Assembly: GCF_040250305.1 (NCBI RefSeq)
Contig: NZ_CP158190.1
Location: 1,458,001 to 1,522,000 of the forward strand
DNA: 64,000 bases
Reading direction: 5' to 3'
DNA from: Peribacillus frigoritolerans
GTDB taxonomy: Bacteria > Bacillota > Bacilli > Bacillales > DSM-1321
A program made the translations under genes and the position numbers. The notes under the pieces were generated by a model. The model ran no database searches. It was given only the letters and a program-made list of their open reading frames with translations, and was not told the DNA's origin. Positions 41,981 through 58,285 of the stretch are shown piece after piece (the first letter of the stretch is position 1; each line of letters starts with the position of its first letter).

Positions 41981-42766
41981 ATGACCTTACAGACTATAGA
42001 ACATGATATCTTGGCATTAGTTGAAACATTTAATGGGAGAATCGCATATAAAATTGAAAATGGTCTTGGGGACACGATTGGATATCACGAGAATGAATCC
42101 TTTCAATCAGCGAGTTTAATCAAAATACCAATGATCATCGAAGGTTATCGTCAAAGTGAACAAAAGAAAATCTATTTGAACCAACCAGTGACCATCCCGC
42201 CTAATGAAGTGACTGGGGGTTCCGGGGTCCTGCATGTCTTATCGAACAAGGTATTTTTAACCGTAGAGGATTTATTGACATTGATGATAACCGTTTCCGA
42301 CAATACATCCACGAATATGATGATGAACCTGCTGGGCTTTGAGGAAATCAATCAATGCATCAAGGAACTTGGTTTGAAAAATACTGTCCTTGAACGAAAA
42401 ATGCAGGATTTTAAGGCACTAAAAGAAGGGCGCGACAATACCATATCGGCGGAAGATACGATTACCTGCTTAAAAGCCATACATACAGGCAACTTTTTAA
42501 CGAAAGAAAGCCAGGAAAGAATCTTGCGTGTATTTGACAATCAGCAATTAAGGGATAAACTTCCATCACTGATGGGCAGAGGGGTCAAGGTCGCAAGCAA
42601 AACGGGCGGAATTCGGGGAGTTGCCCATGATTGTGCAATCATTCGGTCAGAAACACAAACTGTTTATGCTGCAGTTCTTACTGAAGATATGAAATCAGAG
42701 GAAGAAAGCCGTCAAGTAATCAGTAAAATTGGAAAACTGATATATGATGATATGGTTGCAGAATAA
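41981..42766 (+). CDS. class A beta-lactamase-like serine hydrolase, cytoplasmic
   Basis: Penicillin-binding-fold serine hydrolase of 261 aa. It has SLIK (Ser-x-x-Lys), SDN and KTG motifs in the right order. The omega-loop region (RKMQDFKALKEGRDN) lacks the Glu166 and Asn170 equivalents needed for beta-lactam deacylation, and there is no signal peptide. A typical penicillinase is therefore unlikely; a D-Ala peptidase or esterase-type activity is possible. GGGAGGA lies upstream of ATG 41981. It is monocistronic. Confidence 0.78.
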   Translation: MTLQTIEHDILALVETFNGRIAYKIENGLGDTIGYHENESFQSASLIKIPMIIEGYRQSEQKKIYLNQPVTIPPNEVTGGSGVLHVLSNKVFLTVEDLLTLMITVSDNTSTNMMMNLLGFEEINQCIKELGLKNTVLERKMQDFKALKEGRDNTISAEDTITCLKAIHTGNFLTKESQERILRVFDNQQLRDKLPSLMGRGVKVASKTGGIRGVAHDCAIIRSETQTVYAAVLTEDMKSEEESRQVISKIGKLIYDDMVAE

Positions 42767-42790
42767 GCTGTTGAATTCAATATTTTTGGA

Positions 42791-42822
42791 AGAGCGGGAA
42801 GTCCTTCATGATTTCCCGCTCT
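42791..42822 (+). terminator. hairpin after the serine hydrolase gene
   Basis: AGAGCGGGAA pairs with TTCCCGCTCT; the T-run is short, so termination may be partial. Confidence 0.6.
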
Positions 42823-42856
42823 TCGATCTTAGTTATGAGGGAGTTAGTGGGAAAGC

Positions 42857-43465
42857 ATGTTATATAAGGAAAAGAAAAAGAAGCGGGGGAAAACTTTAAA
42901 GAAATTTTGTGTAATTAGCGTTATTGCAGTACTGGGGTATTTTGGTTTTTTGCACATGAAAATTCAAGAAACCATTCACCAGCAAATTCCGGAACATGCC
43001 GATTATCTCATTATTCCTGGAGCAAGGGTCAAAGGTTCGGTGCCATCATTATCCTTACAATACAGGATAGATAAAGCTGCAGAATATTTATCGGCTAATA
43101 AACAGACAGTGGCCATTGTATCTGGCGGCAAAGGACCGGGAGAAGAAATATCGGAAGCAAAAGCAATGCAACAGGGACTAATCGCCCATGGAATTGAAGA
43201 GGCACGCATCATGATGGAAGACAAATCTACAACAACTCAGGAAAATATTGTTTTCTCAAAAGAACTCATTCCTGATACAGCAGCTCCAGGATTGATCGTT
43301 AGTAATGACTTTCATATCTACCGGGCAGTCGAAATAGCAAAAAGAGAAGGCTTGGACATAAAAGGAATGCCGGCAAAGACACCAAAAGTGTCACTATTGA
43401 AATCATATACCCGTGAATATCTGGCAATTACCAAATACTATTTGACCGAGTTGATTGGGAGGTAA
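42857..43465 (+). CDS. YdcF-like DUF218 membrane-anchored protein
   Basis: A 202-aa protein with a Lys-rich N-terminus, one membrane span (FCVISVIAVLGYFGFL) and an extracellular DUF218 domain: DYLIIPGARVKG, AIVSGGKGPGEEISEA, EDKSTTTQENIVFS and VSNDFHIYRA. DUF218 proteins (YdcF, SanA, ElyC) affect envelope integrity; the reaction is not known. GGGAAAGC lies before ATG 42857, a modest ribosome binding site. Confidence 0.8.
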   Translation: MLYKEKKKKRGKTLKKFCVISVIAVLGYFGFLHMKIQETIHQQIPEHADYLIIPGARVKGSVPSLSLQYRIDKAAEYLSANKQTVAIVSGGKGPGEEISEAKAMQQGLIAHGIEEARIMMEDKSTTTQENIVFSKELIPDTAAPGLIVSNDFHIYRAVEIAKREGLDIKGMPAKTPKVSLLKSYTREYLAITKYYLTELIGR

Positions 43466-43499
43466 ATTGGAATTCTTTTAAAGATGTGTGGTGCTTTCA

Positions 43500-43760
43500 T
43501 TATTCGACTTCCACGACAACATTAGGAACTTCCCAAAAATCTTTCTCTTGATATAGCTCCTTTAGTGTTTTATAAACGGGATACCCGGTATGGGAAATCT
43601 CGACTCGTTCATCAGCATCCACTTCTTCCACATCTATATCATCAACAAAACCAAGTTGATCATCGATTTCCATTAAATAATACCCGAGTGCCTCATACCC
43701 GCTATAGGCTACAATAACCTTACTGTCAAAACCGCTATTAGAAACTTTGTAATATTTCAT
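43500..43760 (-). CDS. 86-aa acidic protein, unknown
   Basis: AAGGAGG lies just upstream of ATG 43760 on the minus strand, so the start is placed there and not at the far upstream end of the open frame. The product begins MKYYKVSNSGFDSKVIVAYS and contains DDIDVEEVDADERVEIS, with an Asp/Glu-rich composition. No family is recognised. It is monocistronic, divergent from the cold-shock gene. Confidence 0.65.
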   Translation of the reverse strand: MKYYKVSNSGFDSKVIVAYSGYEALGYYLMEIDDQLGFVDDIDVEEVDADERVEISHTGYPVYKTLKELYQEKDFWEVPNVVVEVE

Positions 43761-44050
43761 TGAGTGGCCTCCTTGTTGATCATTCTTAAAAATGAAAATC
43801 GTACGGTTTCTTATTACTCTGATATACCCATTAATTACTATCTGAATCATTAAATTGGATAAATAAAGAAAATAGCAAGTCAAAAAGAATGTGAAGCCAA
43901 CTTAAAATATCACTCGAAAATTTGCTATCTGCATCAATTCATGTTAATCTAATAAAGAATTGTTTTTGGTTGTGGAAGAGGATACTCGTTATTTTCCAAA
44001 TGATTAAAAATAGTAATACAATGTGTGTTATGCACTAGGAGGCAACAACA

Positions 44051-44251
44051 ATGGAACAAGGTACAGTTAAATGGTTTAATGCAGAAAAAGGTTTTGGATT
44101 TATCGAACGCGAAAACGGAGACGATGTATTCGTACATTTCTCAGCTATCCAAAGCGAAGGCTTCAAATCTTTAGACGAAGGTCAAAAAGTAACTTTCGAA
44201 GTTGAGCAAGGTGCACGTGGAGCTCAAGCTGCTAACGTTCAAAAAGCTTAA
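44051..44251 (+). CDS. cold shock protein (CspA/CspB family)
   Basis: A 66-aa single OB-fold RNA/DNA chaperone. It has RNP1 KGFGFIER and RNP2 DVFVHFSAI, with the usual start [25 protein letters not shown] lies upstream of ATG 44051. The ~290-bp upstream region may include a cold-shock leader, but no standard cold box could be assigned. A terminator follows. Confidence 0.95.
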
Positions 44252-44279
44252 TTTTAAAATTAAATCGTAACCTATATGA

Positions 44280-44306
44280 ACAGGCTTCCTCGGGAGTCTG
44301 TTTTTT
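44280..44306 (+). terminator. terminator of the csp gene
   Basis: ACAGGCTTC pairs with GGAGTCTGT (two G-T pairs), then six T. Confidence 0.75.
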
Positions 44307-44372
44307 ATTGTGCTAAAAAATGAAAGCAAAAAAAATCCCACTCTGACTGAGTAGGTTTTTAGTGACTTGTCA

Positions 44373-44540
44373 TTAAGCTTTTTTTAATTCTTCCTCAAAG
44401 AAAAAAGTAGTCGGATGTTCTTTAACAGTATAAGAATATCTTTTCATGTTTTTTACATATGCCCATTTATTAATGGTTACTGATTCATTAGTATCCTGAA
44501 TAGTTACTGTTTCACCAGTATTATACTTATTGCTTTTCAA
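44373..44540 (-). CDS. 55-aa small protein, unknown
   Basis: Minus-strand TTG 44540 has GAGGGTGG five bases upstream, so the frame is read from there and not from 44633. The product begins MKSNKYNTGETVTIQDTNES and contains WAYVKNMKRYSYTVKEHP. The beta-rich, SH3-like pattern (GETVTIQ) is only suggestive. No function is known. Confidence 0.55.
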   Translation of the reverse strand: MKSNKYNTGETVTIQDTNESVTINKWAYVKNMKRYSYTVKEHPTTFFFEEELKKA

Positions 44541-44688
44541 TTTAGCCACCCTCTTTAATAATAGTATAACATATTTGGCAGTGAAAGATGTGTTCAAGAT
44601 ATTCCAATGATAAAAAGGGGCATGCCATGTCATTCAGTTTGCTGGACAAAAGCTAAAAGCCTAATGGTGATTGTTTAACTGTGAATGA

Positions 44689-44732
44689 AAAAACAGCCAC
44701 ATGTTCCCTAATATTACAGGATTCACGTGGCT
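44689..44732 (-). terminator. probable original terminator of the aminopeptidase gene
   Basis: On the minus strand AGCCACGTG pairs with CATGTGGCT and is followed by GTTTTTTC. It lies 50 bp beyond attL, that is, directly downstream of where the aminopeptidase gene ended before the island inserted. Confidence 0.65.
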
Positions 44733-44782
44733 ATGATCAGAAGGTTTTCAAGTGATGACGCTTAATGCCGATTAATTAAAAA

Positions 44783-44843
44783 GCCCAATCCCCATTACGG
44801 AAAACAGGTTCTGAAGTGCCGTCCTGTTTGATGCCGTCGATGT
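44783..44843. repeat. attL, 61-bp copy of the aminopeptidase 3' end
   Basis: Matches 55002-55062 except for one base (AAAAC against AAGAC). Read on the minus strand it still encodes the aminopeptidase C-terminus and runs into GDWAF and a stop, so this side carries the ancestral gene end. Confidence 0.9.
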
Positions 44844-44923
44844 AGGCTGGAAACGTTGATATATAAGGGTTTTGTAGTTTTTGAATAAAAGGATAAAAAT
44901 GGATTGTAAAAAAACTACTTTTC

Positions 44924-44952
44924 TGTGACCACATGTGACCACTGCGTGACCA
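44924..44952 (+). repeat. integrase arm-type site candidates, left end
   Basis: Three direct copies of GTGACCA: TGTGACCAC at 44924 and 44934, and CGTGACCA at 44945, spaced 10-11 bp, about one helical turn. Confidence 0.65.
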
Positions 44953-45373
44953 GAGAAAGTACAGTTATAATCAGCCTAAACAGTTAATAAAGTTCCCTTA
45001 CAAATAAGCCTCTCCCAAACTTAGAGAGAGGCTTATTTGTATTCCTTATTAATTTGGAATACAAATAAATAGTATGGAATCATTGTGTTTCTTGATCGGG
45101 GGTGATTTTCACCAAAACCATGGTCTCATTTTTATATTTAATGAGTAGCACTTCCACTCCCACACTCAAAGTGCTATTTGTGATGATAAGCGTATTAGAG
45201 TTCTGTTCTCTAGCCTCTGAAACTTCGTTGCTCCGCTCCTTACATTCAAAAGTGGAACATCAAAACACCTTTTGCATTTAAGAAAGGGTTTTGATACTAT
45301 TTACCTCCAGCACTTTATGACAATGAAAAGCCCCATGCTACCTTAATTGATAACATGGGTAAATGATTATGTA

Positions 45374-45520
45374 TTATGCTAGTTTTTCTTCTCCTTCAAC
45401 ATCTTGAATTATTTTAAGTGCTTCTATATAACTTGATGCATATGTATGATTAAGTTTTTCTGTAACTGTATTACAAATCAATTCTTCATCAATAACATCA
45501 ATTCCATCAAATGCTGTCAT
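45374..45520 (-). CDS. possible 48-aa acidic protein
   Basis: ATG 45520 starts a 48-residue frame, MTAFDGIDVIDEELICNTVT..., ending EGEEKLA. Codons and composition look protein-like, but the ribosome binding site (GTGAAG) is weak and the surroundings are decayed. Unknown function. Confidence 0.35.
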   Translation of the reverse strand: MTAFDGIDVIDEELICNTVTEKLNHTYASSYIEALKIIQDVEGEEKLA

Positions 45521-45669
45521 ACTTCACATTCATGTCTTCTCAATGGATTCCTTACCTGTACAAGTTATAGTTACTGTAACCAATTAATTGTAATGGGTTC
45601 TCAGGAGATTGTTGTTTTTGGAATTTTGATGTAATTTTAACAGGCAATTGACGAGCTGTGCTTGGTACC

Positions 45670-46578
45670 TCATTCTAATTTGGAGATATGTAATTTTATG
45701 CATTTTAAAAACTCTCTGGTTGCAAAAGAAAAATGTTTTTTCTTTGATCGTACCCATCCGAAGGATCGGCGGTTGGAATCGAAATTTTTTAAAGGTATTG
45801 GGATAATTTCTCCACTTTTAACATAATGATCATCTTTTAGTGCTATATCCATCAAAAAGCTAATCGCCAATTCTTCTGAAACGGCTTTTTTGATGACTTC
45901 AGTATTGTTTGAAGTAAATAAAATATTCATGGGGCCGTATCTATTCATAAATAGAGAAATGGAATCTTTCCATCTTCCCCCATCATACATAACTACTGTT
46001 TCGTTGATTAATTCCTCAGGAGTTAAATAGTCACTGAATGCCAATGGAGAATGCTTATTAACACATACCATTATTTCCCCTTCTAATAGTGTTTCGAAAA
46101 CTAACTCTTCATGAGCATCCCAATCAATTTCATCGATCATCGCTAATCCAAAGTCAATCTTACCTTTTAAAACATCTTCAATAATTTTTGGTGATTTTTT
46201 TTCCGTCATGACAATACGGAAGTTGGGATAGTCTTTTTTGAAGTTTGATAATGATTTGAGTAAAATTGGCGTGAAGAAGCTGGCGCTGGCAGATAGATGT
46301 ATTTCTCCATTTATTAAGGATGTTTGCGCTTGCGATTCTTCTTGTATTTCATGTAGTTTAACTACAATTTCATACGCTTTTTTTATGATGTTTTTGCCTT
46401 CAGCTGTCGGTATAGCGCCTAACCGTGAACGTGTAAACAAATTAATTCCTAATTCTTGTTCTAAATTGGTAATAGCCTTACTAATTGTAGACTGAGAAAC
46501 ATGAAGATTTTGTGCAGCGATGGAAATAGAACGTGTTTTAGTCACTTCAACAATATATTTTAATTGTTCAATATGCAT
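45670..46578 (-). CDS. LysR-family transcriptional regulator of the island operon
   Basis: A 302-aa regulator: N-terminal winged HTH (MHIEQLKYIVEVTKTRSISI, AAQNLHVSQSTISKAITNLE) and a C-terminal inducer-binding domain (from ~residue 90). It is transcribed divergently from the acyl-CoA dehydrogenase operon, the classic arrangement for a LysR activator responding to a pathway intermediate. It therefore probably controls the island's catabolic genes. No clear T-N11-A site was settled on in the AT-rich intergenic region. Confidence 0.88.
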   Translation of the reverse strand: MHIEQLKYIVEVTKTRSISIAAQNLHVSQSTISKAITNLEQELGINLFTRSRLGAIPTAEGKNIIKKAYEIVVKLHEIQEESQAQTSLINGEIHLSASASFFTPILLKSLSNFKKDYPNFRIVMTEKKSPKIIEDVLKGKIDFGLAMIDEIDWDAHEELVFETLLEGEIMVCVNKHSPLAFSDYLTPEELINETVVMYDGGRWKDSISLFMNRYGPMNILFTSNNTEVIKKAVSEELAISFLMDIALKDDHYVKSGEIIPIPLKNFDSNRRSFGWVRSKKKHFSFATREFLKCIKLHISKLE

Positions 46579-46716
46579 AAATTTTTACTCCTTTATATGA
46601 ATTTCCTTCAAGTAAATATGATATATAGCCATTTTACATTATTTATAACCATATATAAAATAGATTTAGAATATTAAAATTATTCAATCTATAATTGGGA
46701 TCGGTTAAAAAAACAG

Positions 46717-46732
46717 TTGAAAGCGTTTTCGG
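46717..46732 (+). promoter_or_regulatory. cre-like CcpA site before the island operon
   Basis: TTGAAAGCGTTTTCGG fits the consensus TGWAANCGNTNWCA except for the last A. It lies about 20 bp beyond a TATAAT (46690-46695) and 36 bp before the start codon, a position suited to roadblock repression. Confidence 0.6.
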
Positions 46733-46767
46733 TTCCTCTGAAACTTAAGAATGAAAGGAGTAAAAGT

Positions 46768-47940
46768 ATGCAGGATGTACAAAGCGAGAATGAAGAGAGT
46801 TTACGAGATAAGCTGCTTTATTTCATTTACAACGAGTTGTTGCCGTTTGAGAGAGAAAACGAAATTGACTCAGAAAAAGAAATTCCGATGGAACATATCC
46901 AGTGGGTAAGAAAGAGATCTAAGGAGTTAGGGTTTTACGGAATCAGCCTTCCTAAAGAATTAGGAGGACAATTACTTAATCTGAAAGGGCTATGTGTCTT
47001 GAAGGAGGAATTGACAAAATCCGGTGCGGTTCTTTGGGGGCACATATTAGGTGAAATTGGAGGACCTTTGCGAATCGGTAAAATGTTAAAGGTATTTTCC
47101 CCGGAACAAAGAGAAAAGTATGTAATGCCTGTTATCAATGCAGAAGCGGGATGTTGTTTTGCGTTGTCTGAACCCGAGGCGGGATCAGATGCTAAAGCAA
47201 TTCAAACGACGGCAGTACGAGACGGTGATGACTACATTTTACAGGGTAAAAAGCATTTTATTAGCGCAGCCCCTTATGCAGATTGGGCCATTGTGATTGC
47301 CAAAGAGATCGTTGAGGAAGGCGGTGAAAGAGTTACCGCGTTTATTGTGGAGAAAAAATTGCAGGGAAAGTCAGGTTTTGAATTAGGGGAAATTCAAGTA
47401 CCGATTTCCGGAGAACGGAGTACAGCGGAGCTTATCTTTAATCATTGTCGAGTCCCATCTTCCAATATTCTCGGTGAACCGGGCAAGGGTTTGTTGCTGG
47501 GACTCAGCAGGATAAATGAAAACCGAGCCTCGTGGGGGGCTACCTACCTCGGCGTGGCTCAGCGGCTTCTAAACTTATCCATTGAGCATGCCAAGCATCG
47601 GGTTCAGTTCGGTCGACCGATTGGGGAATTTCAAGCAATTCAACATATGTTAGCGGAGATGGCGACTGAAATTTACGCCGCACGTAGCATGCTCTACGAT
47701 GTAATCGAAAAGATTGATAACGGTGAAGATGTGAAAGGGGCTTCATCCATGGTTAAAGTTTTTTCCTCAGAGGTCGCCAATCGAGTTGCAGATAAAGCCG
47801 TTCAAATCTTTGGCGGGCAAGGGTTAATGAAAGGGCACCCAGTCGAGAAAATGTATAGAGACGTACGGATGTTTAGGATTCTAACTGGTACATCCGAAAT
47901 TCAGAAAAACACTATTGCCAAAGAATTGCTGAAGAAATAA
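46768..47940 (+). CDS. acyl-CoA dehydrogenase family protein (island)
   Basis: FAD flavoprotein of 390 aa with the ACAD fold: CFALSEPEAGSDAK, RVQFGRPIGEFQAI and the C-terminal FGGQGLMKGHPVEKMYRD. The Glu of the usual YEGT is Thr (ILTGTSEIQ), and the alternative position used by isovaleryl-CoA dehydrogenases (DxER) reads INENR. The catalytic base is therefore unusual. A reductase role, as for CaiA, is possible. AAAGGAG lies seven bases before ATG 46768, which is preferred over the frame's earlier starts. First gene of the island operon; the CoA transferase follows. Confidence 0.82.
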   Translation: MQDVQSENEESLRDKLLYFIYNELLPFERENEIDSEKEIPMEHIQWVRKRSKELGFYGISLPKELGGQLLNLKGLCVLKEELTKSGAVLWGHILGEIGGPLRIGKMLKVFSPEQREKYVMPVINAEAGCCFALSEPEAGSDAKAIQTTAVRDGDDYILQGKKHFISAAPYADWAIVIAKEIVEEGGERVTAFIVEKKLQGKSGFELGEIQVPISGERSTAELIFNHCRVPSSNILGEPGKGLLLGLSRINENRASWGATYLGVAQRLLNLSIEHAKHRVQFGRPIGEFQAIQHMLAEMATEIYAARSMLYDVIEKIDNGEDVKGASSMVKVFSSEVANRVADKAVQIFGGQGLMKGHPVEKMYRDVRMFRILTGTSEIQKNTIAKELLKK

Positions 47941-47960
47941 GAGAAGAAGGTGTGAGTATT

Positions 47961-49142
47961 TTGTCTGAATATCAAAAAAAAATTAAAGTGCTAGATTTAA
48001 CTCGTTTATTACCTGGACCTTATTGCACGATGCTGCTAGGCGATTTGGGAATGGATGTGATTAAAATTGAAGACACGGAACATGGCGATGCAACTAGAAA
48101 ATCAGCCTCATTGTTCAACATCCTTAATCGAAATAAGAAATCGGTTGCCCTTGATTTAAAACACCCGAAGGGAAGAGAACTATTTCTTACACTTTCTCAA
48201 GAAGCGGATGTCATCGTAGAAGGATTCCGCCCGGGGGTGATGAATCGTTTGGGGCTTGGCTATAAAGACATTAAAGCGGTAAATCCGCGTATCATCTATT
48301 GCTCGTTATCTGGTTTTGGGCAAACGGGACCGTATAAAGATCGTCCGGGACATGATTTGAACTATTTAGCCATGGCCGGAATGGTTGGTATTCCATCCCA
48401 AATGGAGTTCCCTACGGGGAGACCTGCGACCCGGGTTTCTGACTTTGCAGGCGGTCTTATGGCTGCTCTTTCTATTCTTAGTGCACTACATGAATTACAA
48501 AGTTCGAAGGTAGGTCGGTATATAGATGTGGCTATGACTGATGTCATGGCTTCATGGGTCGGAATGTTCCTTCCTTACTTGGTAAAGGATGGGGCTGTGC
48601 TATCCAAAGAAGAGTTTCATTTGGTGATGCCAGGAAATGATATGTATGAAACGAAGGACAAGCAATGGCTAACTCTTGGGATGAATGAAGATAAATTTTG
48701 GAGAAACCTGATAGAATCCCTTCAGGAAGAGTTTCCAAGTATAGCCATTGACCAATGGAAAAATCCAATAATAAGAATGAAAAAAAAGGTGGAACTCCAT
48801 TTTCTCTTGAAAGGGATCTTTCTATCAAAACCATTACATTACTGGGAAAGTCTCTTAACTGTAAACGATATTCCTTGGGCGCCCGTCCAAAATGCGAATG
48901 ATGTGTTCAATAACAGGCATTTCAGAGAACGGGGTATTATCGGGGAGATGGTCAACCCTGAAACGGGCGATTTAGAATACCAAGTGGGGTTTCCCGCACT
49001 TTTCTCAACCAGGCTTGACGTGTATCGTAACACTGCCCCGCAGTTGGGACAGCATACTGAGGAAATACTCGGGAATTTAGGCTACCAAAAAGAATTTATA
49101 CATGATTTAGTCGCTAAAAATATTACGAAAATCAAAAGTTAA
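47961..49142 (+). CDS. class III (CaiB/BaiF) CoA transferase (island)
   Basis: CoA transferase beginning KIKVLDLTRLLPGPYCTMLL; the catalytic Asp (~161) lies in RVSDFAGGL. About 393 aa. GAAGGTG lies eight bases before TTG 47961, which is preferred; GTG 47952 adjoins the ribosome binding site and would add three residues. Only ~20 bp follow the dehydrogenase gene, so they form an operon. It is a distant paralogue of the CoA transferase at 4826, which is paired with a dehydrogenase in the same order reversed. Confidence 0.86.
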   Translation: MSEYQKKIKVLDLTRLLPGPYCTMLLGDLGMDVIKIEDTEHGDATRKSASLFNILNRNKKSVALDLKHPKGRELFLTLSQEADVIVEGFRPGVMNRLGLGYKDIKAVNPRIIYCSLSGFGQTGPYKDRPGHDLNYLAMAGMVGIPSQMEFPTGRPATRVSDFAGGLMAALSILSALHELQSSKVGRYIDVAMTDVMASWVGMFLPYLVKDGAVLSKEEFHLVMPGNDMYETKDKQWLTLGMNEDKFWRNLIESLQEEFPSIAIDQWKNPIIRMKKKVELHFLLKGIFLSKPLHYWESLLTVNDIPWAPVQNANDVFNNRHFRERGIIGEMVNPETGDLEYQVGFPALFSTRLDVYRNTAPQLGQHTEEILGNLGYQKEFIHDLVAKNITKIKS

Positions 49143-49187
49143 TTTCAATTTATCATTTTCGAATTTTAATAGGAAGGGGTATTTTAT

Positions 49188-50765
49188 ATGGATAATTTAA
49201 CTTATCAGGCTTTTCTGTTCAATGGAATAAACAAATTTGATTACCAGCCTGCACTTACTTGCATAGAAACAAACGAGACCATCACTTATAAGGAATTGCG
49301 GGATAGAGTAGATACGGTAGCCAACCAGTTGATTCGGCTAGGCGTGAAAATTGGAACCCATGTTGCTGTTATAGTCCCAAATAGCATTGAAAATGTCATA
49401 TATAATCTTGGTGTAAGTCGATGTGGGGCAACCGTAATTCCTTTAAATGATAAGCTGGGGGTTAGAGAGAGCGAGTTTATCTTGAGAAATGCCGAGCCCC
49501 AAGTGGTAATTATGGCAACCCAGAAACATGTAGAGACTGTGCATGACTATCTTAAAGAGGCAGATAAAAACAGCGTGACTGTTATTGGTCTTTCGGGTTT
49601 CGGTGTCGAATATCCCGATGAGTTCCATTCTGTTGATTTGGGTGATACAAAAGGCAATATGGAATTTCCCGTCGCCTCGTTGGATGATTTAGCAACAATA
49701 TCATATACTGGTGGCACAACAGGCACACCTAAAGGAGTCATGCATTCACAACAGGGTTTTGGAGCCTCGATCATGGCTTCGTGCATGGAATATCCGTACG
49801 ATGATCAAGACAAGGTTTTGTTTTGTACACCGCTTATTCATTCGGCAGGTGTGCTGCTTCAGAGGTCATTGGTATCCGGCTGTCATGTCTACATCATGCG
49901 GTCTTTTAATCCCGAGGTTTTTTTACAGACTGTACAAAAAGCACGTATTACCAGTACTTTTATTGTTCCGACAATTATTTACCGATTGATTGAAGAGGCT
50001 AAGAAAAAAGCCTACGAGGTGAGCTCGTTGCGAAACATCAATTATGGTTCATCCCCTATCTCTACAGAACGTCTAAAAGAAGCGTTTGAAATCTTTGGAC
50101 CTATTTTTAGGCAGCAGTATGGGATGACAGAATGCAGTATCTTGATTGCAAGACTTACAAAAAGCGATCATATCTGGGCGTACGAAAACAACCCTGAAGT
50201 GTTAAAAAGCTGCGGAAAGCCGTGTATGTTTACCCAAGTTCGCCTGATTGACAACAATGGAAATGACGTGAAGCCTCTTCAGCCAGGGGAAATTGCTGTC
50301 AAAATCCCTTCTGTCTCAGTCGGCTATTACAAAAGACCCGATCTTACCCAAGAGGCATTCCGTGATGGTTGGTTCTATACGGGAGATATCGGAAAACTAG
50401 ATAAATACGGTTTTCTTCATATAATTGAACGAAAAAAAGATATGATCATTTCTGGTGGTTTAAATGTATATCCCGCTGAAGTGGAAAGGATTATTAACCA
50501 GCACCCTGCTGTATCAATGAGTGCATGTATTGGCATACCACATGCTGATTGGGGAGAAGCGGTCTGTATATTTGCAGTGCTTCGTAAAGGGGAAACGTGT
50601 TCCAAGGAAGAGTTAATTCAGTTCTGCAAAGAACGTACTTCTAACTATATGGTTCCTAAAGAAATATATATTGAGACATCATTACCACTAACATCAGTAG
50701 GTAAGATAGATAAAAAAGAGTTGAAAAAACCTTTTTGGGAAGGTACGACACGCGTTGTAAATTAG
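49188..50765 (+). CDS. acyl-CoA ligase (Cai C-like AMP-binding enzyme, island)
   Basis: Adenylate-forming enzyme joining a carboxylic acid to CoA with ATP. The 525-aa protein has P-loop YTGGTTGTPKGVMH (~residue 175), YGMTE, the hinge KKDMIISGGLNVYP and the catalytic C-terminal Lys in TSVGKIDKKEL. AAGGGG lies upstream of ATG 49188. Together with the CoA transferase it gives two ways to activate the substrate, as caiB and caiC do in the carnitine system. The acid is not known. Confidence 0.88.
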   Translation: MDNLTYQAFLFNGINKFDYQPALTCIETNETITYKELRDRVDTVANQLIRLGVKIGTHVAVIVPNSIENVIYNLGVSRCGATVIPLNDKLGVRESEFILRNAEPQVVIMATQKHVETVHDYLKEADKNSVTVIGLSGFGVEYPDEFHSVDLGDTKGNMEFPVASLDDLATISYTGGTTGTPKGVMHSQQGFGASIMASCMEYPYDDQDKVLFCTPLIHSAGVLLQRSLVSGCHVYIMRSFNPEVFLQTVQKARITSTFIVPTIIYRLIEEAKKKAYEVSSLRNINYGSSPISTERLKEAFEIFGPIFRQQYGMTECSILIARLTKSDHIWAYENNPEVLKSCGKPCMFTQVRLIDNNGNDVKPLQPGEIAVKIPSVSVGYYKRPDLTQEAFRDGWFYTGDIGKLDKYGFLHIIERKKDMIISGGLNVYPAEVERIINQHPAVSMSACIGIPHADWGEAVCIFAVLRKGETCSKEELIQFCKERTSNYMVPKEIYIETSLPLTSVGKIDKKELKKPFWEGTTRVVN

Positions 50766-50812
50766 AAGGCTTCAATTGTTAGAGGATAAGTTATATGTTC
50801 TCTAACAAGAAT

Positions 50813-50827
50813 TAGAAAGCGCTTTCA
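50813..50827 (+). promoter_or_regulatory. cre-like CcpA site before the transporter gene
   Basis: TAGAAAGCGCTTTCA contains the perfect palindrome GAAAGCGCTTTC and matches the cre consensus apart from the first base. It lies in the 220-bp gap before the MFS gene, which otherwise shows no gene. Confidence 0.65.
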
Positions 50828-50987
50828 ATATATTATTTACTTTACAATGAAATGAAAGCTTTTCCACCGCCTGTTTTTGAATCGGATAAGTATAGTAATA
50901 ATTACTGCTTAACCTATATTTATTGTAATGAGATTTGTAACACAAATGGGGAGGATTATGTCGATACTTCAAAAAGGAGCGAATTGA

Positions 50988-52223
50988 ATGAAAGCTTATG
51001 CGACCGATAAAAAGCGTAAAACCATCATTATCATTCTTCTATTTATAGTAGCGACAATAAGTTTCATTGATAAAGCGGCGATTAACGTAGCAATTATTCC
51101 AATTCAGAAGGACCTGCAGCTTAACTCTTTTGAATCAGGTTTGATATTAAGTGTTTTTTTTATCGGCTACGCCCTTATGCATCCATTAGGAGGATGGCTT
51201 ACAGATAAATACGGATCACGAAAAATATTAATTCTTTCAATCTTAGGTTTCTCGGTTTTTACTGCTTTTACGAGTTTTGCTTGGTCATTTGCATCACTAT
51301 TTTTGTTTCGTTTCCTGTTTGGTATTGGGGAAGGTGGTATTTTTCCTGCCAGCATACGATCTATTTCCGAAAACTTTCCCGATAAAGAAAGGGGGAGAGC
51401 AACTTCTTTTTATCTATCTGCACAAACGTTCGGTGGTGCGCTAGGTTCAGTCGTTATAGGGGCTTTGGTAGTTTCCCTCGGGTGGAGATGGATGTTTGTC
51501 AGCATTGGTATAATAGGTGTTTTGATAGCATGGGTAGTTTGGGTTTATCTAAAATCTCCGGTAGATATACAAATAAATAACGAGAAGCAAAGTCAAAAGA
51601 AAGTTTCTTATAAAAAGGTATTTAATACAAAAAATTTTTGGAAGATATTCTGTACTAAATTTTTTTCAAATATAGTGAACTGGGGTATAGTTTCCTGGAT
51701 GCCTTCTTATTGGGTAAGTAAAGGTTTAGACTTGGTGTCAGCAAGTGCCTTGATGGCCATACCGTTCCTTACCTCCTTTCTTATGTTTAATGTTAGTGGC
51801 TGGATTTTAGATAAATATATGGCTGGAAGAGAAAAATACCTGACAGCAGCAGGATCAATATTTTCTGCCCTCTTTCTTTATTTGATGTTTAATGCAACGT
51901 CTGTTTCACTTGGGATTGTTTATATGACCCTAAATGCTATTTCAATCGCGTTTATCGGAACGTCACTATACACAATGGTCATTAAATACTCAGCAAAGGA
52001 ATTAACTGGTTCTGTGACAGGGTTAGTCAGTTTTGGCGGACAAATTTCCGGTGGTATCTCTCCAGCCGTAATTGGGTTCGTTCTTACTGTATTCAACGGT
52101 TCTTACAATGCTGCATCCTGGTTTTTAATCGCTGCTGCATTGACAGGGGCATTTACGTCACTAACGATTAAAAACAACGTTATAGAAACAACAGAAAATG
52201 AGCTTAAAGAGCATTCTTTTTAA
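50988..52223 (+). CDS. MFS transporter, anion:cation symporter type (island)
   Basis: Twelve-span major facilitator of 411 aa. It has SFIDKAAINVAIIPIQKDLQ at TM1, GGWLTDKYGSRK in loop 2-3 and FGIGEGGIFPAS in TM4, the pattern of the ACS family that imports organic anions such as hexuronates, galactonate or aromatic acids. AAAAAGGAG precedes ATG 50988. It likely brings the island's substrate into the cell. The serine hydrolase gene follows after 28 bp. Confidence 0.85.
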   Translation: MKAYATDKKRKTIIIILLFIVATISFIDKAAINVAIIPIQKDLQLNSFESGLILSVFFIGYALMHPLGGWLTDKYGSRKILILSILGFSVFTAFTSFAWSFASLFLFRFLFGIGEGGIFPASIRSISENFPDKERGRATSFYLSAQTFGGALGSVVIGALVVSLGWRWMFVSIGIIGVLIAWVVWVYLKSPVDIQINNEKQSQKKVSYKKVFNTKNFWKIFCTKFFSNIVNWGIVSWMPSYWVSKGLDLVSASALMAIPFLTSFLMFNVSGWILDKYMAGREKYLTAAGSIFSALFLYLMFNATSVSLGIVYMTLNAISIAFIGTSLYTMVIKYSAKELTGSVTGLVSFGGQISGGISPAVIGFVLTVFNGSYNAASWFLIAAALTGAFTSLTIKNNVIETTENELKEHSF

Positions 52224-52251
52224 CTTAAATAGAAAAGCAGGAGGGATTGTA

Positions 52252-53436
52252 ATGAAGTCCATTACAAAGAATGAAATCAAAGTTTTTCCACCACTTACAG
52301 AGGATATCGTTACGAAGGATAATTGGTTTACTTCAAAAAAAAATTTGCAACGGTATTGTCATAGTGGTGAACTGAGTCCCGGTCGTATTATATGGAGAGG
52401 AAACCAAAAGCCCACCCAATTATCATATGCTAAAGACCAATTAAATCTAGAAAAAATAAACAATAAGAATGGGGAAAGTGTTTTAGCCGATCTTGAGAGA
52501 ACTGACACAGATGCTTTTTTAGTGATGCATAATGGAAAAGTTTTGTATGAGAACTATTTTAACGGATATAAATCTTATCAGCTTCATGCAATGAACTCTG
52601 CTACAAAATCTTTTGTAGGCTTGATTGTTAGTTTGCTTGCTGATGAAGGATTACTAGATACAAATAAAAAATCTTCCTTCTATATACCTGAGTTAGACGG
52701 AACAGGACTTGGTGATGGAACAGTTCAGCAATTGCTTGATATGCAAGTTCCTGTGAGATATTTGGAAGCCGACCCGCCATTGGGAATAGGCCGTAGGACA
52801 CCGATTTTTATGGCAACAGGTTCAATTCCCAAACCTGATAACTACGATGGACCCGAAAACCTATACGAATTTATGTTGTCGAGCAAAAAAGATAAAATAC
52901 CCGGTACTGCATTTTATTATGAAAGTGGACAAACAGAAGCATTGGGATGGATTGTCAAACGCTTGACAGGGAAAAACTTGGCAGAATTAATTCAAGAAAT
53001 AATCTGGTCTAAACTGGGGGCAGAAGAAAACGCATTAATGCAATTGGATCTAATCGGTACGGATATTGCCAGCGGCGGTATGCGGGCTACATTGCGTGAT
53101 TTGGCACGATTTGGTGAAATGATGCTTAACGATGGTTACTACAATGGCCAACAAATCATTCCGGAACATATTATAAGGGAAATTAAAAATGGTGGTAACC
53201 GAAAATATCTTGCGGAAAGTAATCATAGTCATCTTTCAGGATTCTCTTATCATAATCAATGGTGGGTTAGTCATGATCAATTCGGTGGATATTCAGCCCG
53301 TGGGAAGTTTGACCAGCGAATATACATTGCACCAAAAGCTGATACAGTGATTGTAAAATTATCTTCTTATCTGTCTCCTAGTTCAAAAGAGACAAATGCT
53401 TTTCAAGCGATAATAGAGTATTTAGAAAAACAATAA
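52252..53436 (+). CDS. beta-lactamase-fold serine hydrolase, NylB/esterase-like (island)
   Basis: Class C-type serine hydrolase of 394 aa. It has the nucleophile motif SATKS (~residue 120) and the Tyr motif YYESGQTEALG (~residue 220); the last motif is probably in GGYSARG. The layout resembles 6-aminohexanoate-dimer hydrolase and EstB-type esterases. There is no signal peptide, so it would act inside the cell, perhaps splitting an ester or amide after import. GGAGG lies before ATG 52252; the frame's open extension upstream overlaps the MFS gene and is not used. Confidence 0.82.
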   Translation: MKSITKNEIKVFPPLTEDIVTKDNWFTSKKNLQRYCHSGELSPGRIIWRGNQKPTQLSYAKDQLNLEKINNKNGESVLADLERTDTDAFLVMHNGKVLYENYFNGYKSYQLHAMNSATKSFVGLIVSLLADEGLLDTNKKSSFYIPELDGTGLGDGTVQQLLDMQVPVRYLEADPPLGIGRRTPIFMATGSIPKPDNYDGPENLYEFMLSSKKDKIPGTAFYYESGQTEALGWIVKRLTGKNLAELIQEIIWSKLGAEENALMQLDLIGTDIASGGMRATLRDLARFGEMMLNDGYYNGQQIIPEHIIREIKNGGNRKYLAESNHSHLSGFSYHNQWWVSHDQFGGYSARGKFDQRIYIAPKADTVIVKLSSYLSPSSKETNAFQAIIEYLEKQ

Positions 53437-53658
53437 AAATAAAAGAAGTCGGGCGTGATGTTTTGAAGAATATGATAGCAGAGGGAACATTCAGATCTTT
53501 TATGAACTACAAAGAATGAAAATTTGATTTATCAGAAGTGTCATTATACAACTTATTTGAAGAGTTCTACTAAATGGGAGAACAAGAATAATAAACCTCA
53601 TTTAGATAAAATACGAGGAATACGACCCAAAATCGTGTTCCTCAATAAATATTAGAAG
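53437..53658. other. intergenic remnant between hydrolase and integrase
   Basis: No intact gene. Short coding-like pieces (NMIAEGTFRSFMNYKE, then DLSEVSLYNLFEEFY) suggest a decayed gene. A hairpin at about 53611-53642 (GAGGAATACGA with TCGTGTTCCTC) lies before the terminator. Confidence 0.35.
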
Positions 53659-53688
53659 GAAACGCTTTTATATGAGCGTTTCTTTTTT
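53659..53688 (+). terminator. terminator upstream of the integrase remnant
   Basis: GAAACGCT pairs with AGCGTTTC, followed by six T. Confidence 0.8.
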
Positions 53689-53809
53689 GAGTTTTAACTT
53701 GTTTGTGTAGAGAAATACATAAAGCTTGAAATAGTAGCACTTCTTAATATTTGATAAAATGTATATAAGGGACTTATTTTCTGTTGGGAAATCTAGGAGG
53801 TTCTTAACA

Positions 53810-54935
53810 GTGAAAGGCAGTATCATGAAAGACAAGAAAACAGGTAAGTATTTTTATGTAATCGATATGGGGATTGACCCATTAACAGGGAAACGAACAA
53901 AAAAAAAGAAGAGGGGAATAATAAGAAGGAAGCGGAGCATGCTCTTAGTGAGTTTCTAAATGATGTTAGACTGGGTAACTATGTTGAACCAGATAATATG
54001 ACTCTAGGTGATTTCATTCAAGACTAGTTGAAGGAAATGAAATTGAATGTAGCGGTAAGTACTTATCAAAACTATATTAGTTTTAATAAGTGTCATATTA
54101 ATCCCAGACTAGGTTATTTTTAAATGCAAAAAATTGAACCTTTGATAGTCCAAAGATTTATTTATGATTTGGTAGAAGAAACTGCTTTAAGTTCTAATAC
54201 GTTAAGAAAATTATTGATATGTTGAAGGTTGTTTTTAGAAAGGCTGTTAGTTTAAAGGTAGTAAATGAAAATCCAGTTTTAAATGTAACGTTACCAAAGA
54301 GAAACAATCTTGAAATGACCGCTTGGGATACTGCACAGGTGGAATACTTCATACAGCACTCAAAGAAGCATCGATTTTATACGGTCTATTTAATTGCGTT
54401 ATTAACTGGTATGAGAAAAGGTGAAATAACTGGATTGCGTTGGAAGGATATTGATTTTGAACAAAAAATCATCTATATCAGACAAATCTATGATATAAAC
54501 GCAAAGCAGTTCAAAGTTGGGGCTAAAACAAATGCTGGTGTCCGTTCGATTCATATTCCTGACGTGTTGATAGAACAACTGAAAAGGGAGAGACTCGTTG
54601 TTGTCGGACATAAGTTGAAGCAAGGTCAAAACTTCAATGATTATGATTTAGTTGTTTGTACACGTTACGGTAATCCGCTCGATTCTGCAACGCTTTCCAA
54701 ACGACTTAAAGCCCAAGCGATAAAGCTAGGGTTACCTTCAATCGGTTTTCATGATTTAAGACATACACATGTGACGATGCTAAACAAACAAAATGAGAAT
54801 GTAAAGGTCATTTCAGAGCGAGTTGGGCATACATCCATTCAAATTACGCTAGACAAGTATAGCCACGTGCTTCCCAGTATGCAGAAACACGTGGCTGAGG
54901 AACTTGATAATTTGTTTAAAGTTAAAGAAATGTGA
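53810..54935 (+). pseudogene. tyrosine-recombinase integrase, disrupted
   Basis: The gene starts at GTG 53810 behind AGGAGG. The N-terminal arm-binding part (YFYVIDMGIDPLTGKRTKKKK) is lost to a frameshift at an A-rich tract near 53900. The next frame (EAEHALSEFLNDVRLGNYVE) is cut by TAG at about 54025 and TAA at about 54121. After another shift near 54219 the catalytic domain is intact: Arg in GMRKGEITGLRW, HDLRHTHVT, RVGHTSIQ and Tyr in LDKYSHV. Repaired length would be ~374 aa, normal for Tn916/phage-type integrases. The 54219-54935 part might still be translated but lacks DNA-arm recognition. Confidence 0.9.
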
Positions 54936-54951
54936 CCATTTTCGTGACCAC
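54931..54951 (+). repeat. integrase arm-type site candidates, right end
   Basis: TGTGACCA (54931-54938) and CGTGACCAC (54943-54951), the same motif and orientation as at the left end, overlapping the integrase stop codon. Confidence 0.6.
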
Positions 54952-54994
54952 TTAAGGTTTAACCCTTCAAAACCCTTCTAAATCAATGCTCTTC

Positions 54995-56230
54995 TTAAAA
55001 CGCCCAATCCCCATTACGGAAGACAGGTTCTGAAGTGCCGTCCTGTTTGATGCCGTCGATGTTCATTTTATCCGATCCAATCATGAAATCGACATGTGTA
55101 AGGCTTTCATTCAGTCCATTTTCTGCAAGCTCTTCTGGACTCATGTTTTTTCCGCCTTCAATACAGAAAGCATAGGAGCTGCCGATAGCGAGATGGTTTG
55201 ATGCATTTTCATCGAATAGTGTATTGAAGAATAAAACATTCGATTGGGAAATTGGTGAGTTGAATGGAACAAGTGCCACTTCCCCAAGATAGTGAGAACC
55301 TTCATCCGTTTCAACCAATTGTTTTAGGATTTCTTCCCCTTCTTCAGCTTTTACTTCAATGATCCGTCCTTCCTTAAAGGTCACGGAAAAATTATTGATG
55401 ATGTTGCCGCCGTAACTAAGTGGTTTCGTACTGGAAACCGTACCGTTAACGCCTGTTTTCAATGGAACTGTAAACACTTCTTCGGTTGGCATGTTAGCCA
55501 TGAATTCATGACCCTGTACGTTAACGCTTCCTGCTCCGACCCAAAGATGTTTGTCGGGTAACTCGATTGTCAAGTCGGTTCCAGGAGCCGTGTAATGCAA
55601 TTTTTGGTAATGCTTATCATTTAAATAATCAACCTTTTCATGCAGGGTATCATCGTGTTTTTTCCAGGCCTCTACAGGATCCTTCACATCAACACGAACT
55701 GCTTTGAAAATGGCTTCCCACAGCAGATCAACGCGTTTACCTTCTGCTTCTTCAGGGAATACTTTATCAGCCCAAGCCTTTGAAGGGACGGCAACTATGG
55801 ACCAGCTCACTTTATCGGATTGCATATACTGACGCCACTTCTTCAGAGCAGTCCCGGATGCTTTTTGGAAGTTGGCAATCCTTTCAGGTTTTACACCTTT
55901 TAATAAGTCAGGGCTGGAGGAGATGACGGATAGATAGGCAGCTCCGTTTTCTGCAAGTTCGATCGTTTCTTCTGCGCGCCATTTTGGATATTCGTGGAAC
56001 ACCTCGTCCGGAGCCAGTTCATATTTGGTACGTGAAACGATATCGTCATTCCAGTTAACGATGACATTGCGCGCACCGTTTTCATATGCCTTTTTTACAA
56101 TGAGACGCACAAGGTCAGCGCCCTCTAATGTTGTGTTTACGACCAGTGTTTGGTCTTGTTGGATGTTTACGCCGACTTTTACGGCAAGTTCCGCATATTT
56201 TTCTAAATTCGTTTGAAAATCACTCATCAT
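54995..56230 (-). CDS. M29-family (AmpS-type) aminopeptidase
   Basis: Metallo-aminopeptidase releasing N-terminal residues from peptides in the cytosol; 411 aa as in AmpS/AmpT. It starts YAELAVKVGVNIQQDQTLVV, and the metal-site region contains LGEVALVP, NASNHLAIG and THVDFMIGS (Glu, His, His and Asp ligands). AAGGAG lies upstream of ATG 56230 (a second ATG follows directly). Its last ~60 bp are the attachment site of the island (attR), so the C-terminus now comes from a recombined copy yet still ends GDWAF. Its own terminator was moved 10 kb away. Confidence 0.9.
   Translation of the reverse strand: MMSDFQTNLEKYAELAVKVGVNIQQDQTLVVNTTLEGADLVRLIVKKAYENGARNVIVNWNDDIVSRTKYELAPDEVFHEYPKWRAEETIELAENGAAYLSVISSSPDLLKGVKPERIANFQKASGTALKKWRQYMQSDKVSWSIVAVPSKAWADKVFPEEAEGKRVDLLWEAIFKAVRVDVKDPVEAWKKHDDTLHEKVDYLNDKHYQKLHYTAPGTDLTIELPDKHLWVGAGSVNVQGHEFMANMPTEEVFTVPLKTGVNGTVSSTKPLSYGGNIINNFSVTFKEGRIIEVKAEEGEEILKQLVETDEGSHYLGEVALVPFNSPISQSNVLFFNTLFDENASNHLAIGSSYAFCIEGGKNMSPEELAENGLNESLTHVDFMIGSDKMNIDGIKQDGTSEPVFRNGDWAF
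55002..55062. repeat. attR, 61-bp repeat inside the aminopeptidase gene
   Basis: The partner of attL (44783-44843), one mismatch. It spans the last codons of the aminopeptidase gene and keeps the reading frame to the stop. Confidence 0.9.
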
Positions 56231-56473
56231 TTTAAAACTCCTTTTCCATTTTCTACATTTTTAATTGTACTTATTGTGATATAAAAAAGAAACTTTTTAC
56301 ACCGATGTGAAATTAATAGTATACGAAGGAGTTCATTTGCAACTTAAGTTCGCTCAGGCTCCAGCAGCTATTTTGTCTATCTTGCATTTTACCAAAACTA
56401 AAGAAGGAAAGACTATTGAAAAGGTTTGAATAGTTGAATAATTCAATGAATCTGTACAGTGAATCAATGGACT

Positions 56474-56510
56474 GAAAGAAAGAGGGCCTCTTTGAGACCC
56501 TCTTTCTTAT
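56474..56510. terminator. terminator of dhaS-like gene
   Basis: AAGAAAGAGGG pairs with CCCTCTTTCTT; T-rich on both strands. It serves the minus-strand aldehyde dehydrogenase. Confidence 0.8.
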
Positions 56511-56521
56511 TAATCAAAAAA

Positions 56522-58009
56522 TCACTTGCCCAAATTAATCCAGACGCTTTTCACTTCAGAATAGTTGTCCAGTGCATAAGATCCCATTTCACGTCCAATT
56601 CCGGATTGTTTGTAGCCGCCGAACGGGGAAGCTGCGTCGAACGCGTTATAACAATTCACCCATACTGTACCGGCACGAAGTTTTCCTGCAACATAATGGG
56701 CATTGGCTATATCGCTTGTCCATAAGCCGGCAGCCAATCCATATTCACTGGCATTTGCACGGTTAATGACATCATCTAAATCCTCGAATGGCATTGCCGC
56801 TATGACCGGTCCGAAAATCTCTTCTTTGGCAATCGTCATATCCTCTTCAACACCAGCGAATATAGTAGGAGAAACAAAGTAGCCTTGTTCACCCGGTTTA
56901 TTTCCGCCGACAAGAACTTCCGCACCCTCGTTTTTCCCTTTTTCAATATAACCCATTACCCGATTTTGCTGCTCCTCGGAAACAAGCGGTCCAATTTGTG
57001 TACTTGGATCCAGACCTATCCCTTGTTTGATGTTTTTTGCATGGCTGGCCATATCGGCAACAACATTATCATACTGTTTCTTTTGAATATAAACCCTTGA
57101 ACCGGCACAGCATACCTGACCTTGGTTAAACATGACTCCATTCAAAGCTCCAGGGATGGCTTTTGAGAAATCAGCATCAGGCAGGATGATGTTTGGCGAT
57201 TTCCCTCCAAGTTCCAATGTGACCCGTTTCAATGAATATGAAGCGGAGCGCATGATCAATTTTCCAACTTCGGTCGAACCGGTAAATGCAATTTTATTTA
57301 CTTGCGGATGGTCGACAAGTGCTTGTCCGGCGGTTTCACCAAAACCGGGAACGATATTGACGACCCCATCAGGGAAACCGGCTTCAGCCAATAATTCAGC
57401 CAGGTAAAGAGCGGAAAGCGGTGTTTGCTCAGCAGGCTTTAATATGACTGTACAACCTGTAGCGAGTGCCGCTCCCAGTTTCCACATCGCCATAAGAAGC
57501 GGAAAGTTCCATGGGATGATTTGGCCGACAACACCAACAGCCTCGTGTTTTGTGTAGTTAAAATAATTTCCGCTTACCGGAATGGTCTGCCCGACAATCT
57601 TGGTGGACCAGCCAGCAAAATATCTCATATGTTCTATCGCTAAAGGAATGTCGGCATTGGTCGTTTCATTGATTGGTTTCCCATTATCCAACGTTTCCAA
57701 TTGAGCTAGTTCAGTTTTATTTTCTTCCATTAAATCGGCTAGTTTATACATAAGTCTACTGCGTCCAGCTGCGCTCATCCTTGACCAAGGACCTTCATCG
57801 AATGCTTTGCGTGCAGCTTTGACGGCTAAGTCGATATCTTCTTTATCAGCTTCATAAACATCGGCAAGCTTTTGTCCTGTAGCAGGATTAGGAGTGGAGA
57901 AGGTTTTTTTTGAAGCACTTTCTACAAACTGGCCATTAATATAGAGCTTTTTTGGTCCTGTTAAAAATTTTTGCAGCTTTCCACTTACTTCTAACGTTAG
58001 ATTTGTCAT
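56522..58009 (-). CDS. NAD(P)-dependent aldehyde dehydrogenase (DhaS-like)
   Basis: Oxidises aldehydes to acids; 495 aa, the same size as B. subtilis DhaS. IIPWNFPLLM is in the cofactor site (with Asn168), GSTEVGK in the Rossmann turn, general base Glu266 in LELGGKSP, and nucleophile Cys300 in GQVCCAG. GGAGGG lies upstream of ATG 58009. It is monocistronic; the aldehyde is not defined. Confidence 0.88.
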   Translation of the reverse strand: MTNLTLEVSGKLQKFLTGPKKLYINGQFVESASKKTFSTPNPATGQKLADVYEADKEDIDLAVKAARKAFDEGPWSRMSAAGRSRLMYKLADLMEENKTELAQLETLDNGKPINETTNADIPLAIEHMRYFAGWSTKIVGQTIPVSGNYFNYTKHEAVGVVGQIIPWNFPLLMAMWKLGAALATGCTVILKPAEQTPLSALYLAELLAEAGFPDGVVNIVPGFGETAGQALVDHPQVNKIAFTGSTEVGKLIMRSASYSLKRVTLELGGKSPNIILPDADFSKAIPGALNGVMFNQGQVCCAGSRVYIQKKQYDNVVADMASHAKNIKQGIGLDPSTQIGPLVSEEQQNRVMGYIEKGKNEGAEVLVGGNKPGEQGYFVSPTIFAGVEEDMTIAKEEIFGPVIAAMPFEDLDDVINRANASEYGLAAGLWTSDIANAHYVAGKLRAGTVWVNCYNAFDAASPFGGYKQSGIGREMGSYALDNYSEVKSVWINLGK

Positions 58010-58184
58010 TAATTACCCTCCTGAATAAAATAAATGGTTATCTTGGGCAAAACATGATGACTTATTGTTAACGCTATGATCTATGCCAATTTTTATGATA
58101 AATGAAAAAAAGGGAATATTCAATCTATAACATTCGACAGAATATCCAAGGTTTCTTCATCATTTTAAAAATGAAGTATTTTTT

Positions 58185-58194
58185 TGTCATGACA
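58185..58194 (+). promoter_or_regulatory. palindrome TGTCATGACA upstream of niaP
   Basis: A perfect 10-bp palindrome about 90 bp before the niacin transporter start, beside a CTTCAT/ATGAAG repeat. niaP is usually repressed by NiaR, so this is a candidate operator. The match to a NiaR consensus was not verified. Confidence 0.35.
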
Positions 58195-58285
58195 TGTGTA
58201 TTTACTATAGCAAAAATGAAAGTTAATAGTTAAAATGAATAAGGATAAAATAACAAGAAGGTCTAAAGTTCTTCAGGAGGAATAT

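Follow-up and report, generated by a model that had tools for sequence, protein, structure and literature searches.

The element described here occupies approximately 10.2 kb of a Peribacillus chromosome, which was analysed as one contig of 5.6 Mb, and lies within a 64-kb stretch of it (hereafter called the window). It abuts the 3′ end of the gene for an M29 aminopeptidase, which we take to be ampS. Two direct repeats of 68 nt, identical at 66 of the 68 positions and 10219 bp apart from start to start, bracket the element; the right copy is the final 68 bp of ampS, and both copies read to GDWAF-stop. Because the duplicated 68 bp restores the gene end, ampS is intact. The runner-up two-copy direct repeat family in the same 13 kb has only 28 nt at 79%. 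An original prediction, made by a model from the sequence of this DNA, had described a 61-bp repeat with one mismatch. This repeat is real, and it forms the core (44783-44843 and 55002-55062) of the longer one. The same prediction placed the insertion in the 3′ end of a protein-coding gene rather than in a tRNA gene, with the frame kept, and this holds as well: the search for tRNA genes over the whole window found none. The cargo consists of a LysR-type regulator, an acyl-CoA dehydrogenase homologue, a family III CoA enzyme, an acyl-CoA ligase, a major facilitator superfamily (MFS) transporter, and a NylB-like hydrolase, with the LysR gene divergent. All of these features are collected in Table 1.

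Table 1. Features of the element and of its target gene (positions in the window).
Feature	Coordinates	Strand	Basis or detail
Left attachment copy, displaced ampS 3′ tail, 68 bp	44776..44843	.	66/68 to 54995-55062
Element left end, common to other elements at the ampS site	44847..45068	.	Hairpins 44999-45041 and 45033-45068
Left inner inverted repeat	44856..44877	.	Complementary at 86% to 54965-54986; sister elements have a similar sequence
Three GTGACCA arm-type sites (44925, 44935, 44946)	44925..44952	+	Motif search
LysR-type regulator, 302 aa	45670..46578	-	Pfam
cre-like (CcpA) site TGAAAGCGTTTTCG, LysR-dehydrogenase interval	46718..46731	+	Motif scan
Acyl-CoA dehydrogenase homologue without catalytic Glu (RILTGTSEIQ), 390 aa	46768..47940	+	Pfam, alignments; start inferred
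Family III CoA enzyme (PF02515), racemase-type His134, Asp164, Glu246	47952..49142	+	Pfam and alignment
Acyl-CoA ligase (AMP-binding), 525 aa	49188..50765	+	Pfam; closest solved relative FadD8
cre-like palindrome AGAAAGCGCTTTCA ahead of the MFS gene	50814..50827	.	Motif scan
MFS transporter (MFS_1)	50988..52223	+	Pfam; closest solved relative D-galactonate transporter, 121 bits
Serine hydrolase, beta-lactamase family, closest to 6-aminohexanoate-dimer hydrolase	52198..53436	+	Pfam, S134xxK137
Tyrosine integrase, broken: remnants of Arm-DNA-bind and of the middle part, and catalytic-domain ORF 54219-54935	53810..54935	+	PF00589 and translations
Two GTGACCA arm-type sites (54932, 54944)	54932..54950	+	Motif search
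Right inner inverted repeat	54965..54986	.	Repeat search
Right attachment copy, 3′ end of intact ampS	54995..55062	.	Direct-repeat search
ampS, M29 aminopeptidase, target gene, intact, 411 aa	54995..56230	-	Pfam, 599 bits

The predicted arm-like repeats are also genuine. The motif GTGACCA occurs seven times in the 64 kb on both strands, and five of these occurrences form two tight clusters at the element ends; sister elements in other genomes have clusters of the same kind at their ends. Over its left 160-450 bp, the element matches those in G004, G009, G012, G027, G033, and G061 at 78-89%. The Rfam scan of 42000-58500 gave no match at the gathering score. A promoter scan found 33 candidates against 33.6 expected and is accordingly given no weight.

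The tyrosine integrase that the original prediction invoked retains its catalytic domain, but the gene is not intact, a point on which the prediction was silent. Its upstream part is disrupted, leaving three separate pieces with stops, and the open reading frame (ORF) for the catalytic domain is oriented toward ampS. This damage is relevant to the self-mobility of the island and not to its origin. With its own integrase broken, the island is likely to be immobile by that enzyme and is thus probably fixed. In two sister elements (G009 and G012), the integrase at ampS has an uninterrupted frame of 376 aa, in which Pfam, applied to the G009 protein, identifies the Arm, SAM-like, and catalytic domains. 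A search of phage DNA with the integrase stretch returned a single 64-bp match.

How often has the ampS site been used? The 3′ side of ampS was inspected in all 36 Peribacillus genomes, including the one analysed here, and an integrase piece entered the count only if it lay no more than 2.5 kb from ampS. The site is empty in nine genomes (G001, G008, G011, G021, G023, G025, G026, G031, and G034), in which the conserved flank, found past the island in our own genome, follows 174-474 bp past ampS with no integrase piece between. An integrase or its remnant lies within about 1.2 kb of ampS in 15 genomes, our own included (G000, G004, G006, G007, G009, G010, G012, G013, G014, G017, G018, G027, G029, G033, and G061), and some of these remnants are as short as 29-50 residues (G006, G007, and G014). 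The other 12 genomes are uninformative, since at ampS they lack both integrase pieces and a flank that can be recognised. A second attachment copy lies away from ampS in two genomes, at about 20.5 kb in G009 and about 28.7 kb in G012. Thus, the element has both features of a site-specific island, the duplicated end of the target gene and the single-copy empty site in relatives, and it is a decayed genomic island inserted at the ampS 3′ end by a tyrosine recombinase, as predicted. On the genomes compared, moreover, the ampS 3′ end is a recurrent integration site and a genus-wide hotspot, which the original prediction had not mentioned.

The integrase was also sought beyond the genus. A sample of 397 genomes from across the order, with up to four candidates scored per genome, contains 18, our own included, with a match at E 1e-90 or better. 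The neighbourhoods of five integrases from other genomes were read: those of G224 (60% identity) and G053 (54%), which belong to other families of the same order, stop about 80 bp away from the 3′ end of ampS, while the three with 44-46% identity have no ampS in the surrounding 1.5 kb. It thus seems that one branch of the integrases has ampS as its specific target.

Other elements at the site carry different genes. In G013 (L039, first 9 kb downstream of ampS), Pfam identifies a GntR regulator, an isocitrate/isopropylmalate-type dehydrogenase, and a glycerate kinase beside integrase remnants, and a transporter-like ORF was recognised by eye. The large elements of G012 and G009 (L051, L054, and L065) hold nuclease-looking genes, judged by eye, and NO VEIN-domain genes, of which one (in G012) was tested with Pfam; these genes might serve in defence. 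There are hints of tandem elements in G004 (L035), where two further attachment-like copies lie at ampS, and in G009 (L064:3130-3440), where the far attachment copy is preceded by the apparent integrase-side end of another element. In G025, a genome that is 87% complete, ampS appears as two matches (G025:C1:2434923-2436156), possibly through a sequencing error.

The cargo has a distribution of its own. The interval 45667-53459 of the window matches four Priestia megaterium plasmids with about 90.5% DNA identity, at a query coverage of 75% in three and 53% in one. The Priestia plasmids hold the six genes in identical order, with two additions between the ligase and MFS genes (an MFS fragment and a DUF202 gene), and the encoded proteins are 83-96% identical to those of the island on the one plasmid compared. 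A conjugative plasmid of Burkholderia ambifaria carries, in one cluster, genes for a LysR regulator, a ligase (31% identity), the dehydrogenase homologue (47%), a family III protein (41%), an MFS transporter (22% over part), a porin, a BON protein, and a serine hydrolase (33%), and this LysR regulator has no BLAST match to that of the island. In three other plasmids with the dehydrogenase homologue, the neighbourhoods are partial or different, and a fourth such stretch carries no annotation. The expectation that the gene set recurs elsewhere is therefore borne out on plasmids, but not its expected setting: no integrative element was recognised in the plasmid stretches, and no integrase is annotated in the two Priestia stretches read, for which the gene table is incomplete. 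In the island, a short stretch of the MFS start region occurs twice (at 50846 and 50982, window 50834-50997), perhaps as a deletion scar; the Priestia counterpart, with the MFS fragment and the DUF202 gene, is L082:17320-18770.

Conservation of the cargo in relatives, named beforehand as an observation that would speak against insertion, was not seen, to judge by the family III protein. At E 1e-100, the family III protein is absent from all 35 other genus genomes, and it occurs in one of 43 genomes of the family and one of 397 of the order sample (up to four candidates scored per genome), our own each time. Its top-scoring match in the genus outside our own genome is only 41% identical, and one contig scan of named genomes for relatives found only three distant loci, at 28-35%. 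Elsewhere on our own chromosome (C1 ~2361.1-2366.3 kb; L104:5076-10280), a sister module encodes an MFS transporter, a LysR regulator, a dehydrogenase, and a ligase, which are 52, 48, 70, and 58% identical to the island counterparts, respectively. Twelve of the 36 genus genomes, our own included, have the sister dehydrogenase, and the module around it was read in two, G000 and G008. The module adjoins genes for an AgcS amino acid carrier and a metallo-beta-lactamase-fold protein, presumably sulfatase-like; the latter was dropped as a substrate clue, since only two fragments match in G008.

At the family level, all of the predicted cargo gene calls are right by Pfam, but the label “CaiB-type transferase” is not sustained for the family III protein. 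This protein scores 325 bits with PF02515, against a gathering score of 23.3, and in the alignment to the alpha-methylacyl-CoA racemase MCR of Mycobacterium tuberculosis (1x74) its His134, Asp164, and Glu246 fall on His126, Asp156, and Glu241. These three are described as the catalytic residues of alpha-methylacyl-CoA racemase in PMC12682127, which also presents a family III relative, Rv3272, lacking the bases needed for racemase activity. In contrast, YfdE has Tyr, Asp, and Asn at the three columns. The His/Asp/Glu set is kept in all 120 of the best 120 among 2739 relatives (E 1e-60; own record included). When 11 more family III sequences from Peribacillus were read, eight proved to have His/Asp/Glu and three Tyr/Asp/Asn, and the two residue sets thereby separate the family. 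By its residue set, we call the island protein racemase-type.

The neighbouring flavoenzyme homologue lacks the catalytic Glu, another feature absent from the original prediction. Pfam finds all of the ACAD domains, the fold matches those of acyl-CoA dehydrogenases, and the model has a predicted local distance difference test (pLDDT) score of 92. Its start is most likely ATG 46768, with GAAAGGAG upstream, rather than the listed TTG 46717, which overlaps a cre-like site. The JK-loop motif is LTGTSE, as compared to YEGTSE in close solved relatives, which places Thr at the position of the Glu. None of the best 120 of 1919 relatives (own record included) has Glu at this position, where Thr, Ser, or Val stands instead; one relative, 97% identical, is named Peribacillus. 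Three copies of the dehydrogenase (P0002-P0004) are 96-99% identical to it, and P0003 is the only one of them with that name. Nor is the alternative Glu of the isovaleryl type present: the site that isovaleryl-CoA dehydrogenase uses, which we take to be the position of Asn252 here, is Asn in at least 97% of the best 120 relatives. Among the same 120, residue 96 is acidic (94 Glu and 24 Asp), and Arg102 is kept in 118. According to PMC11659651, the place of the Glu is taken by Gly or Ala in the dehydrogenases for long-chain acyl-CoA, isovaleryl-CoA, and benzylmalonyl-CoA, and it is therefore quite possible that the island homologue has a displaced base elsewhere. The same source associates Leu, Val, or Phe before the Glu with alpha-substituted substrates, and the Leu preceding the missing Glu in the island protein fits this rule. 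A bolder proposal, which we hold only tentatively and judge rather unlikely, is that of a widespread dehydrogenase subfamily without the alpha-carbon base, with a different reaction or a displaced base, partnered with a racemase-type enzyme in a mobile operon shared by Bacillota and Proteobacteria. Candidate reactions would be, for example, elimination, desulfination, decarboxylation, or oxidation via the Glu/Asp at 96.

Two cre-like (CcpA) sites, scored against what we take to be the cre consensus, lie at 46718 and 50814; the window has no others, and the island contains both. The scan gave three matches on both strands against 0.38 expected, a count reached by two of 100 shuffles. The Priestia copy has one cre-like site, with one mismatch, between the ligase and MFS genes, and AGAAAGCGTTTTCT, noted by eye with two mismatches to cre, before the dehydrogenase gene; no cre-like match was found in the B. 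ambifaria and sister-module stretches. The divergent LysR gene and these sites weakly suggest a catabolic operon under carbon catabolite control.

What would such an operon degrade? Judged from the protein families, it probably serves the breakdown of an organic acid; a 2-substituted acid, epimerised in a racemase step, is our leading guess, with even chances. The MFS transporter would import the organic anion, and the NylB-like hydrolase may free the acid from an ester or amide, either before or after import. The ligase would then convert the acid to its acyl-CoA, the family III enzyme would equilibrate the alpha-carbon of the acyl-CoA in a racemase-like manner, and the dehydrogenase homologue, without the usual Glu base, may oxidise or otherwise transform it. 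General beta-oxidation, encoded elsewhere, would complete the breakdown. The kind of element is well known. To the overall reading, a decayed island whose operon, shared horizontally, serves the CoA-dependent catabolism of an organic acid, we assign a probability of about 0.8.

Several observations weigh against this reading. The empty locus anticipated in relatives is found in the nine genomes, but the sole conspecific one, G061, carries a 1.8-kb remnant that lacks the cargo and has one repeat-like end, and its site is strictly not empty. In addition, the loss of the Glu alone does not prove a new chemistry, because known dehydrogenases also lack it there. Finally, the solved sequences closest to the family III protein are CoA-transferases, as the closest folds appear to be; the protein is longer than MCR, and by overall score, and apparently by fold, it is nearer to the transferases. 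These top scores are the basis for regarding it as a true CoA-transferase, like SUGCT or formyl-CoA transferase, in an operon for a dicarboxylic acid with a glutaryl-CoA-type dehydrogenase, and NCBIfam models of the dicarboxylate type rank with its best matches, although their scores fall well under the cut-offs. We consider the transferase assignment doubtful, as the catalytic columns are those of MCR and not the Tyr/Asp/Asn of the aligned transferases, the set is invariant in the 120 relatives, and the operon already holds an acyl-CoA ligase. The cai-like carnitine/crotonobetaine route without CaiD, as originally predicted, fares far worse. A dehydrogenase, a family III protein, and a ligase do occur together in the cai operon. 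Nevertheless, the CaiA model reaches 175 bits of a 540-bit cut-off on the dehydrogenase homologue and the CaiB model 120 of 413 on the family III protein, for which Escherichia coli CaiB ranks near the bottom of the solved relatives, with 79 bits over 20-206. The island transporter is of the MFS_1 type, in contrast to the CaiT-type BCCT transporter of cai, and the cai operon has, to our knowledge, no counterpart of the hydrolase. With the racemase residue set in the supposed CaiB protein as well, we regard this route as highly improbable.

As for the element itself, it might still be mobile, through its own integrase remnant or a sister integrase acting in trans, since both attachment copies, the inner inverted repeats, and the arm-type sites are present and resemble those of elements with full-length integrases. 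We deem this improbable: its own integrase is in three pieces, and the other matches to it in the genome are weak, the best having 46% identity over 99 residues with stops. It has next to no probability that ordinary recombination or an assembly error duplicated the ampS tail around an old-resident operon. The related dehydrogenase in 12 genomes, and in the sister module of the two read, could be taken to favour long residence, but the empty sites refute it, and the single-contig genome, the integrase with its arm sites, and the absence of the family III protein from the other genus genomes argue against it as well.

The decayed island is a clean example of a soil Bacillus relative gaining a metabolic operon at the 3′ end of a protein-coding gene, and with it ampS joins the recurrent integration targets of Bacillales, a role of which the literature matches listed made no earlier mention. 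The operon is common to different phyla, and its central flavoenzyme lacks the textbook base. Identification of the substrate would give a function to many proteins named only “acyl-CoA dehydrogenase family”.

Among known elements, integrative and conjugative elements (ICEs) and decayed ICEs have tyrosine integrases in the 3′ ends of the protein genes rplL, guaA, and rpmG (PMC4701971), and the island likewise has a tyrosine integrase at a protein-gene 3′ end. The direct repeats of those ICEs measure 12-54 bp, as compared to 68 bp here, and the island further differs in its ampS target, its broken integrase, and its gene content: Pfam recognised no conjugation genes (relaxase, coupling protein, or type IV secretion system) in the seven ORFs of 100 aa or more that the element contains. 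The intact sister integrase shares the domain order of phage-type integrases (Arm-DNA-bind_4, Phage_int_SAM_3, Phage_integrase), and among the matches listed the best are from phages of Paenibacillus larvae (37.6%). Unlike phages, the element has no structural or packaging genes by Pfam among the same seven ORFs.

Among known enzymes, the hydrolase resembles 6-aminohexanoate-dimer hydrolases in family and SxxK motif (S134-A-T-K137); it scores 272 bits to 4gb7, which bears that name, and lower, about 176 bits, to the NylB entries. The family III protein is likened to MCR by the His/Asp/Glu catalytic set. Whereas the caffeyl-CoA reductase CarC (6fah) and butyryl-CoA dehydrogenase (5ol2) have the catalytic Glu, the island homologue has Thr in its place and, elsewhere, the conserved acidic residue 96 and Arg102.

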